Positions 62,054-64,000 of a stretch of 64,000 nucleotides of DNA are shown here, piece after piece. Under the pieces are notes generated by a model. The model ran no database searches. It had not been told where the DNA came from and saw only the letters and a list, made by a program, of their open reading frames with translations. The number at the start of each line of letters is the position of its first letter. The first letter of the stretch is position 1. A program made the position numbers and the translations under genes. This DNA is from Loktanella sp. PT4BL (GTDB lineage: Bacteria > Pseudomonadota > Alphaproteobacteria > Rhodobacterales > Rhodobacteraceae). The DNA is taken from the NCBI RefSeq assembly GCF_003201935.1, contig NZ_QJJL01000001.1, forward strand, positions 744,001 to 808,000. Reading direction: 5' to 3'.

Positions 62054-64000
62054 CTAGCCGATCTCAGCCAGGCGCGCGATGGCGGCCTTGAGTTGTGCTT
62101 CCTCGTTTTCGCGCAGGGCAAGGTTCGCCTTGGCCTCGGCCACAACCTCATCCGGGGCGGATTCGATGAATTTGGGGTTATTCAGACGCCCGCGCAGGCC
62201 GCCCAGTTCCTTGCCCAGTTTCTGCATCGTTTTTTCGAGCCGCGCGATTTCCTCGGCCACGTCAATCAGATCGGCCAGCGGAATACCAAAGGTGCCGCCT
62301 TCCATCGGGATGGTGACGCAGCCTTTGGGGAAGTCATCCACATGTGAAAGGCTTTCGATGCGGGCAAGGCGCTGGATCAGCACATGGTTGTTGTCCCATG
62401 CGGATTGCCCTTTGGCGTCCAGCCCTGACACCAGAAGGGGCACTTTGGCACCCGCCGGCACATGCACCTGCGCGCGCGCCGAGCGCACGTTGTCGATCAG
62501 ATCGATCACCCAGTTCATCTCGCGATCGGCGTCGGCATCCACGAGATCGGCCGCCGTATAGGTCGGCCAATCGGCGTGGACCAGCATCTTGGCGCGGCTG
62601 TCCGCCTGTTGCCACAGCTCTTCTGTGATGAACGGCATGATCGGGTGCAGCAGGATCAGGCATTGGTCCAGCACCCAGCGCAGGGTTTGTTCTGTCTCGG
62701 CCTTGGCCGCCGCATCGTCGCCTTGCAGGATCGGTTTGGAGAATTCCAGATACCAGTCGCAGACCTTGCCCCATGTGAAGGCATAAAGCGCGTCGGCGGC
62801 GTCGTTGAAGCGGTAGGCCTCCATCGCGGCATCGATGGTCTCGCGCACCTTGCCGGTTTCGCCGATGATCCATTTGTTCAGCGTTTGGGTCGCGTCAAGC
62901 CGTGCCGCATCGCCGGGGTAGGGGATGTCATAGTGTTCGGCAAAACTGAAGGCGTTCCACAGTTTCGTGCCGAAGTTGCGGTAGCCCTTGATCCGGTCTT
63001 CGCTGATTTTCAGCACACCACCCAAGGCTGCCATCTGCGCGTTGGAAAAGCGCAGGGCGTCGGCGCCGTAGGCGTCGATCATGTCGAGCGGGTCGATGAC
63101 GTTGCCCTTGGTCTTGGACATCTTCTCGCCCTTCGCGTCGCGGACGAGCTGGTGCAGATAGACGGTGTGGAAAGGTTCCTGGCCCAAGACCGCCTCGGAC
63201 ATCATCATCATGCGGGCGACCCAGAAGAACAGGATGTCCTGACCGGTGACGAGGACATCACCGGGGAAGTATTTCATCGCCTCATCGTCCGCTGGCCAGC
63301 CGAGGGTGCCGAAAGGCCAGAGACCGGAGGAGAACCATGTGTCGAGGACGTCGGGGTCGCGCGATAGACTAAGCTGTTTCTGAGCGTCCGCCTTCCCGAA
63401 AGCAAACATGCTGGGATTGTCAGACGGTGCTAGCTCATCAATTTTGTATTCTTCACCATAGTATTCAGCCGCTTTAGCCTTCGCCTCTGAGAAGCTTGCG
63501 CCACAAAAGTATTGCAGAGAGTTCTGGCGGTCTGGCACGCCTAGTGAGCCAGATGAGCGAATTGCCTCAAAGTCTTTGAGATAATCTCGGTCTGGCCCAT
63601 ACCAAACCGGAATCTGATGCCCCCACCAAAGCTGGCGCGAGATGCACCAAGGCTCGATGTTCTCCAGCCAGTGGTAATACACCTTTTCGCCGCTTTCCGG
63701 CATGATCTTGGTGCGGCCTTCCTTGACTGCATCCAGCGCGGGGCCGACGATTTTGGCGGTGTCGACGAACCATTGGTCGGTGAGCATCGGCTCGATGACG
63801 ACTTTGGAGCGGTCGCCGAAGGGCTGCATGATCTTTTTGGATTCGACGAAGGGGATCATGGCGGGCACGTCGGGTTGAGGTCCCGGATCAAGTCCGGGAC
63901 TGCGGTCTGCCGCGTCCTCTGACGCAGTCCCGGTCTCCGCGCCGGGACCTTTTGCCGCCGGATTGGGCACCATCACCGCGTTACCCTCTGCCGTGATATC
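62054..64000 (-). CDS. valS: Valyl-tRNA synthetase, N-terminus missing
   Basis: The C-terminal part of ValS, about 649 residues visible; the reading continues past the right edge. The second class I signature KMSKTKG is present (GEKMSKTKGNVIDPLD), with the catalytic-domain pieces QLWWGHQIPVWYG and DPDVLDTWFSSGLWPFGTLGW, the anticodon-binding helical domain, and the C-terminal coiled coil with EEIARLEKTMQKLGKELGGLRGRLNN. Oddity: near the start of the visible part, 63878-63950 is a nested palindrome translated in frame. It adds a Gly/Pro/Asp-rich stretch between VPN and the MIPFVESKKIMQPFGDRS core. In many alphaproteobacteria valS follows popZ; here it lies about 9 kb downstream and in opposite orientation. 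Confidence 0.92.
   Translation of the reverse strand, partial: DITAEGNAVMVPNPAAKGPGAETGTASEDAADRSPGLDPGPQPDVPAMIPFVESKKIMQPFGDRSKVVIEPMLTDQWFVDTAKIVGPALDAVKEGRTKIMPESGEKVYYHWLENIEPWCISRQLWWGHQIPVWYGPDRDYLKDFEAIRSSGSLGVPDRQNSLQYFCGASFSEAKAKAAEYYGEEYKIDELAPSDNPSMFAFGKADAQKQLSLSRDPDVLDTWFSSGLWPFGTLGWPADDEAMKYFPGDVLVTGQDILFFWVARMMMMSEAVLGQEPFHTVYLHQLVRDAKGEKMSKTKGNVIDPLDMIDAYGADALRFSNAQMAALGGVLKISEDRIKGYRNFGTKLWNAFSFAEHYDIPYPGDAARLDATQTLNKWIIGETGKVRETIDAAMEAYRFNDAADALYAFTWGKVCDWYLEFSKPILQGDDAAAKAETEQTLRWVLDQCLILLHPIMPFITEELWQQADSRAKMLVHADWPTYTAADLVDADADREMNWVIDLIDNVRSARAQVHVPAGAKVPLLVSGLDAKGQSAWDNNHVLIQRLARIESLSHVDDFPKGCVTIPMEGGTFGIPLADLIDVAEEIARLEKTMQKLGKELGGLRGRLNNPKFIESAPDEVVAEAKANLALRENEEAQLKAAIARLAEIG
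63878..63950. repeat. 73-bp nested palindrome inserted in valS
   Basis: Outer arms AGGTCCCGG (63878-63886) and CCGGGACCT (63942-63950) pair perfectly. Inner arms CCGGGACTGCG (63894-63904) and CGCAGTCCCGG (63923-63933) also pair perfectly. A local hairpin CCCGGA/TCCGGG (63882-63887, 63893-63898) lies within the left half. The GGATCAAGTCC centre is like the short palindromic repeats scattered in alphaproteobacterial genomes. It keeps the valS frame open and encodes part of GTASEDAADRSPGLDPGPQP. Confidence 0.8.

Follow-up and report, generated by a model that had tools for sequence, protein, structure and literature searches.

A REP-like palindromic doublet in frame in a variable valyl-tRNA synthetase loop that holds different palindrome classes in Rhodobacterales

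Introduction

Most known palindromic inserts lying in frame in coding genes come from Rickettsia or appear in compilations of intragenic REPs. The original papers on the Rickettsia palindromic elements (RPEs) are reportedly those of Ogata and Claverie, and the paper on GTAG- and CGTC-tagged repeats is said to be by Di Nocera and colleagues.

RPEs, in the excerpts of a review used here (PMC10969869), are palindromic DNA that is located in frame in metabolic genes and translated. REPINs consist of two inverted REPs with a less conserved spacer, are predicted to form hairpins and are dispersed within one genome, as described in the portion of PMC3116915 (2011) drawn on here. The GTAG/CGTC REPs are short palindromes, often inverted dimers, which are mostly intergenic and sometimes found in ORFs; the intragenic cases given in the parts of PMC3733652 (2013) cited here include tRNA synthetases in three species and DnaE. 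In the same parts, two Xanthomonas recB genes carry different REPs at about one site, and the CGTC repeats apparently have no dedicated transposase (PMC3733652).

Here we describe a palindromic doublet within valS of a Yoonia-type host. With a probability of roughly 80%, we consider that a REP-like inverted doublet entered a tolerant valS loop in frame, and that this loop was refilled by different palindrome families across Rhodobacterales.

Results

A palindromic doublet in the valS reading frame

All positions refer to the window, the whole 64,000-nucleotide stretch that was analysed. The region 63878-63950 carries two inverted palindromic units, in frame in valS. The features are as follows.

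62054-64000, minus strand: 3' part of valS; the gene extends past the window end (L037:1058-4168), with the Pfam domains tRNA-synt_1, Anticodon_1 and Val_tRNA-synt_C
63839-63982, minus strand: hypervariable ValS loop of 48 codons, NAVM...FVES, between the segment ending ADITAEG and KKIMQPFGDRS, delimited by flank alignment
63878-63950, minus strand: palindromic doublet, a nested inverted repeat whose in-frame translation is about GPGAETGTASEDAADRSPGLDPGP; from inverted repeats and RNA fold
63874-63904, plus strand: standard unit GTTGAGGTCCCGGATCAAGTCCGGGACTGCG (palindrome 63880-63900), identical over 31 of 31 nt to an intergenic host copy at G000:C3:423189-423219
63905-63922, no strand: 18-nt spacer separating the 11-bp arms, from the inverted-repeat search
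63927-63948, plus strand: second, inverted unit GTCCCGGTCTCCGCGCCGGGAC with an 8-nt centre; no match above 86% elsewhere in the host

The first-pass annotation had described nested perfect arms of 9 and 11 bp within 73 bp, and both pairs are present, the outer at 63878-63886/63942-63950 and the inner at 63894-63904/63923-63933, 18 nt apart; the inverted-repeat search scores the inner pair as a 14-nt arm at 93%. Each unit is also a palindrome in itself. The one at 63880-63900 (GTCCCGGATCAAGTCCGGGAC) has arms of 8 with 5 between, 7 nt separating CCCGG from CCGGG, and the one at 63927-63948 has arms of 7 with 8 between. The valS frame (minus strand, 62054 to beyond the window end) is continuous and stays open throughout the doublet, as had been proposed, and ValS comprises 1037 aa, counting from MEKTF. 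The suggested hairpin folding also holds at the level of RNA, in which 63870-63960 folds at -49.1 kcal/mol (z -3.86) and none of 200 shuffles folds as well. With up to 3 mismatches allowed, the pattern GTCCCGGA-N5-TCCGGGAC has a single window site, which carries 0 mismatches; this uniqueness is weak evidence alone, because 29 of 100 window shuffles also hold the pattern at 3 mismatches.

Copies elsewhere in the host genome

A search for further copies of the arms had been suggested, and many were found in the host genome, so the palindrome is not confined to valS. The sequence GTCCCGG-N7-CCGGGAC stands at 25 exact places in the 3.9-Mb genome, the valS copy included; its control was run only at two mismatches, where control equals signal (46 vs 47 per strand). 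The clean controls are those of the exact core CCCGGATCAAGTCCGGG, with 6 copies in the host against 0 for the reversed control, and of the core of class A, the host's class, with 27 matches against 0. A BLAST search with 111 nt located the first unit at many sites of the host genome, often as opposite-facing pairs. The shuffled windows might suggest a chance palindrome within GC-rich coding DNA, but the perfect valS site, the exact-core copies and the 31-nt identity with an intergenic copy leave that reading a negligible probability.

A map of host units, made with one regular expression over 24 fetched stretches of genome and a codon-usage gene map trained on 34 window ORFs, holds 33 units. 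Most of them, 29, are intergenic; one stands at the edge of a gene, and the other 3 are in ORFs, namely ValS, a PIN-domain ORF and one with a doubtful N-terminus (L046). ValS is the only clear conserved-gene case among them. The intergenic doublets of the host also show conserved units and variable spacers.

Several of these loci deserve mention in their own right. The PIN_3-domain ORF (L222:1-591) contains a perfect class A palindrome in frame, a candidate insert that may be due to chance. At L046 the palindrome lies at the open N-terminal end of the ORF, for which a later start is plausible. At L040:598-798 a weakly supported ORF of 67 aa ends within a class A unit, from which its final codons and TGA stop come. 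At L003 (G000:C3:423189 to about 423280) a class A singlet adjoins a class B hairpin (TAGGGTGGGTGAAACCCACG...), indicating that both classes can occupy one intergenic site.

No match to the Y1 transposase (PF01797) was detected in the host genome; within the genus, 11 of 55 genomes have any match and 8 of 55 one above the cut-off, and we rejected a RAYT as the evident mover. One genome without class A cores (G012) shows thirteen partial Y1_Tnp matches, many of them at contig starts.

The ValS loop in relatives

We read the loop in 194 genomes, 53 from the genus and 141 further ones from the family, leaving out 3 of 56 genus genomes without a match at 1e-30 and 27 of 170 family genomes without a match at 1e-50. 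Excision by flank alignment succeeded at 286 of 290 loci and gave no loop from G215. Loop lengths range from 7 to 68 residues. By our own, partly manual reading, palindrome-derived sequence is present in 33 of the 194 loops and lacking in 161, which rules out a segment universal in Rhodobacterales ValS; such universality, together with a lack of other genomic copies, was what the first-pass annotation had named as refuting its reading.

The inserts fall into more than one class. Class A accounts for 21 loops (14 genus and 7 family, read partly by hand), and class B, which is built on GTAGGGTGGG/CCCACCCTAC and unrelated to A, for 9 (6 genus and 3 family). A third type, E, is another GC-rich hairpin found in 3 loops (G074, G093, G171) and is the weakest assignment. 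Degenerate or missed cases were added by hand (G033 and G045 to A; G029 and G114 to B; the three E loops, weakly), four automatic assignments were dropped as false (G170, G189, G199, G214), and G036 was counted as A despite palindromes of mixed type. Of the three loosely assigned class A cases, G036 and G045 have no class A core in their genomes, and G033 has 15. The reading of the segment as a palindromic insert is supported, with the refinement that the site has served more than one palindrome family.

Among the 194 loops, 27 hold a perfect hairpin with arms of 8 or more; among 4782 flank windows of equal length, 42 do (p 4e-21, a value that ignores relatedness, related genomes not being independent). 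In a set of 80 genomes (the 53 of the genus and 27 hand-picked from the family, insert carriers first), the class A core is present in 43, with a control of 0 in all, and the class B core in 57, with a control of 1 match each in 6. The 53 genus genomes hold 556 class A cores. Given a loop of ~110 nt and a genome of ~3.7 Mb, ~0.02 cores are expected in the loop, and they were observed there in 11 genomes. Each of these 11 has at least 8 further cores, and 15 of the remaining 42 have any core.

In a protein search, 117 of the 120 matches listed gave 89 distinct loops, of which 42 hold class A, B or E motifs, a share biased to the insert because the query contained it. Among the matches listed with a host-type insert, P0004 (97%, covering 80% of the region) and P0003 (89%, covering 87%) come closest. 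One 65-residue ValS loop (L225, from G104) carries three palindromes, the third of which, ATCCCCGATCAAGTCGGGGATGAC, resembles CGTC repeats by eye.

Insertion and allele exchange

The distribution was followed on ValS trees, which rest on at most ~290 residues and have many weakly supported forks. The flank-sequence tree, whose bootstrap is not settled, contains 104 of the 194 genomes, taken by our own length and sampling rule (G039 was too short), and a FastTree has 192 tips (G039 and one unlabelled genome were too short). The comparison with orthologues had been suggested to see whether sisters lack the insert: Yoonia rosea (G008), the neighbour of the host in the ValS-flank tree (support 98/90), has an ordinary loop. 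In the 104-sequence tree, G035 is the sister of the insert-free G016 (100/96), and G053 (class A) and G023 (class B) are sisters (100/96). Counted over labelled rows only, the starred branches of this tree force a minimum of 6 changes in A, 5 in B and 2 in E, and label A clusters among the labelled rows at the level of shuffles (440 of 500 as low). On the 192-tip FastTree, the four states need at least 29 changes, and insert versus none 24.

One class A loop type is common to G053 and G026, and one class B type to G023 and G017. Loop types shared by non-sisters indicate that exchange of valS alleles also plays a part, and it explains part of the pattern; loop swapping among alleles can mimic independent insertion. 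An explanation that relies on this process throughout would have few insertions, with homologous recombination of valS alleles between species spreading the loops and producing the patchiness. It would fit the loop types that G053 and G023 share with G026 and G017, respectively, even though G053 and G023 are sisters, and likewise the PAPEPGP unit, which is identical across genera with diverged flanks and is the sole copy in several genomes, so that these hold no present same-genome source for it. However, allele spread still requires several founding insertions, with two unrelated classes and two orientations, and the loop backgrounds differ, being of the PNP type in Yoonia and of the DDPRLG type in some other genera. 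We therefore regard few insertions followed by recombination as a possible but rather doubtful account of the whole.

In the loops compared, we saw no insertion event, junction, target duplication or excision, and no clean empty site, because the loop around the insert differs from that of the neighbour; nor did any insert-free sequence share the loop background, against which junctions and a MITE-type target-site duplication would be defined. Of the earlier description as a mobile palindromic repeat, a REP-like repeat in many copies is accordingly retained and mobility is inferred, neither a junction nor a target duplication nor a dedicated transposase having been found.

Elsewhere in valS, window positions 63400-63599 form an AT-richer block (GC 0.46 and 0.52 vs 0.56-0.67 around), at which many genus-genome matches break off. 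This is perhaps a second variable valS segment that is exchanged between alleles.

Conserved units, variable spacers and reading frames

Both class A units are present in 19 genomes or records after removal of repeats. Seventeen of them pair a 7-centre with an 8-centre unit, and two (G078 and G128) pair two 7-centre units. Pairwise comparison of the 11 genomes with the PAPEPGP/VPDQVRD arrangement showed agreement at 17-19 of 19 positions in unit 1 and 20-24 of 24 in unit 2, against 33-82% in the spacers; the third codon positions of the right flank, compared ungapped, agree at 39-65 of 80. The conservation of the units could be attributable to recent copies, interspecies exchange, hairpin-symmetric repair or selection on the hairpin.

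The last of these leads to a single ancient insertion whose RNA or DNA hairpin was selected, for example as a translation pause at the end of the editing domain, and which was often lost. Besides the contrast between units and spacers, this idea draws on the three outer hairpin pairs: of 62 rows, 24 have TA-CG-CG and 15 have CG-CG-CG (rows preselected for at least 5 of 6 pairs, many of the remaining rows being unrelated sequence). On the other hand, G000, G046 and G054 have the opposite orientation and different centres, class B elements occupy the same site, and most relatives have no element at all. Conserved units with variable spacers are also typical of the intergenic doublets of the host and are expected for recent copies. 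An ancient, selected hairpin is thus unlikely, but more probable than the two readings that do without inserted DNA.

The first of those, the chance palindrome, was dealt with above; the second holds that Pro-rich loop peptides were selected and happen to have palindromic DNA. The loop is indeed long and hydrophilic, and natural Pro/Ala/Glu linkers gave some chance pattern matches. Against this, one DNA unit yields different peptides depending on frame and strand. Within ValS, both strands of the 7-centre units are translated, forward in one frame (17 rows of the VPDQVRD type) and reversed in another (4 rows of the PGLDPGP type; a count that includes the repeats L087 and L116, which duplicate genomes G053 and G128), and a third reading, GPGSSPGL, occurs in one protein match. 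Unit identity extends to synonymous sites, and matching units are intergenic. Selection of the peptide as the origin of the palindromes is consequently very improbable.

The 8-centre unit is read as PAPEPGP in ValS and PDH, as SRPPSRDL in PepN and DnaE and as PGPRAGAS in IleS. That such a related 8-centre unit occurs in genes besides valS and uses each of the three frames of one strand points to insertion at the DNA level. Typical 8-centre units have no stop codon in any of the six frames, and five frames are open in 7-centre and class B units.

In-frame units in other genes

The pattern CCGGCCYCCGAGCCGG has 12 occurrences in the 53 genus genomes: 8 in ValS (a share biased because the pattern was derived from ValS), and 3 in PDH-E1beta and 1 in PepN, these four being unbiased. 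The PDH-E1beta cases are located in the linker joining the lipoyl and catalytic domains. In the wider family, 50 of 395 genomes contain the pattern. In the loci fetched, the unit lies in frame in DnaE, NAD(P)H-hydrate dehydratase, IleS, a 2-oxoacid dehydrogenase acyltransferase and another two ValS genes (L404 and L414), together with chance matches and intergenic or unclear places; those in natural Pro/Ala/Glu repeats (e.g. L396, L407, L409, L418) were discarded by eye as chance. PDH-E1beta, PepN and IleS were named from Pfam domains and sequence, whereas L377 was taken as PDH from its resemblance to L373/L384, and L395 as PepN from its resemblance to L372. A PAPEPGP/PASEPGP unit stands at an apparently equal position in NAD(P)H-hydrate dehydratase ORFs of two genera (L369 and L406, the domain scan covering L406).

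Position and predicted structure of the loop

In the alignment with Thermus ValRS, the loop is preceded by a short, weak match (residues 305-329) and followed by one that begins at 349. An AlphaFold2 model of 348 residues, built with 76 sequences, reached a mean pLDDT of 77.6 and a pTM of 0.70. The insert corresponds to model residues 217-240, between strands at 209-211 and 247-249, and residues 216-246, which include it, form neither helix nor strand. The three blocks of 211-240 average 82, 48 and 63. The blocks preceding the insert range from 68 to 97 beyond the first 20 residues, and several later ones are as low as the insert or lower, residues 261-280 and the C-terminal part also being low (block means of 35-56 in places). 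The low confidence is therefore not peculiar to the insert. Foldseek matched the model to Thermus ValRS (1gax) and its editing domain (1wk9), which agrees with the earlier placement of the insert in or near the editing-domain junction, more precisely in a loop where the CP1 editing domain reaches its C-terminal end. Of the earlier description as a tolerated surface loop, the model is compatible with a tolerated, unstructured loop holding the insert; the position at the surface is a proposal, and confidence is low elsewhere too.

Discussion

We favour recurrent entry of palindromic elements into the valS loop. A REP-like inverted doublet whose kin lie mostly between genes would have entered valS in the loop with which the CP1 editing domain ends. 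Inserts would persist at this place because the length of the loop can vary and because five or six of the six frames of a unit contain no stop, so that the cell would translate them as a Pro/Gly/Asp-rich loop. Different palindrome families would have occupied the loop on more than one occasion, in separate Rhodobacterales lineages, and some copies may then have spread by descent or by recombination among valS alleles. The repeats, their copies in the genome, the open frame, the patchy occurrence, the presence of more than one class at one site and the related in-frame units of other genes are observations, to which we add by inference the insertion step, the enzyme behind it and the harmlessness of the insert.

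A more specific proposal, which we offer tentatively and think somewhat less probable than not, is a coding-compatible doublet lineage made of two unlike units, with 7- and 8-nt centres, together with a ValS loop that is a safe harbour repeatedly entered by palindromic elements of several families. The PAPEPGP-type unit of this lineage has no stop in any of its six frames and is ORF-borne in 12 of 12 cases among 53 Yoonia-type genomes (8 in ValS, 3 in the PDH-E1beta linker and 1 in PepN). If it is true, selfish DNA keeps remodelling a loop of an essential enzyme. Close relatives with different palindromes or none in one loop, in a group that has cultured members, constitute a natural experiment, in which one can ask how repeats move if no transposase is evident, how frequently coding DNA is hit, and how the inserted peptides are tolerated or used.

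Comparison with known systems

The valS doublet works like an intragenic REP or an RPE. As in REPs and REPINs, a short palindromic repeat is present in many copies per genome (25 exact host copies), mainly outside genes (29 of 33 host units intergenic), and forms inverted doublets with a variable spacer, as in the opposite-facing host pairs and the valS pair. The REPINs of PMC3116915 are described in the portion used here as extragenic and tied to RAYTs, whereas the valS copy is translated and the RAYT (Y1) transposase of such systems has no PF01797 match in the host. As in RPEs, the element lies in a housekeeping ORF without breaking its frame; RPEs are, however, ~150 bp long and present in many genes per genome in the excerpts of PMC10969869, in comparison with 73 bp including the outer arms and one clear gene among 33 mapped units here. 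The tags beside the stem also differ from GTAG/CGTC. Class A has CGCAG-stem-CCTC (by eye), unlike the CGTC-AT of the CGTC repeats in the cited parts of PMC3733652, and class B, which in ValS loops is mostly GTAGGGTGGG (by eye), resembles the GTAG repeats of that source in that its units begin with GTAG. Because tag, length and transposase do not correspond, we do not assign the doublet to a named family.

The main-text parts of PMC3733652 drawn on here name neither valyl, ValS nor Rhodobacter, and its supplement lists intragenic cases that may include ValS. Among the matches listed from open-licence PubMed Central, no paper reports palindromic inserts in ValS or in Rhodobacterales ORFs. The addition made here is that more than one palindrome class recurs in a single ValS loop: compared with the cases in the cited parts of PMC3733652, at least two classes sit in the same loop of the same gene, in many genomes belonging to one family.
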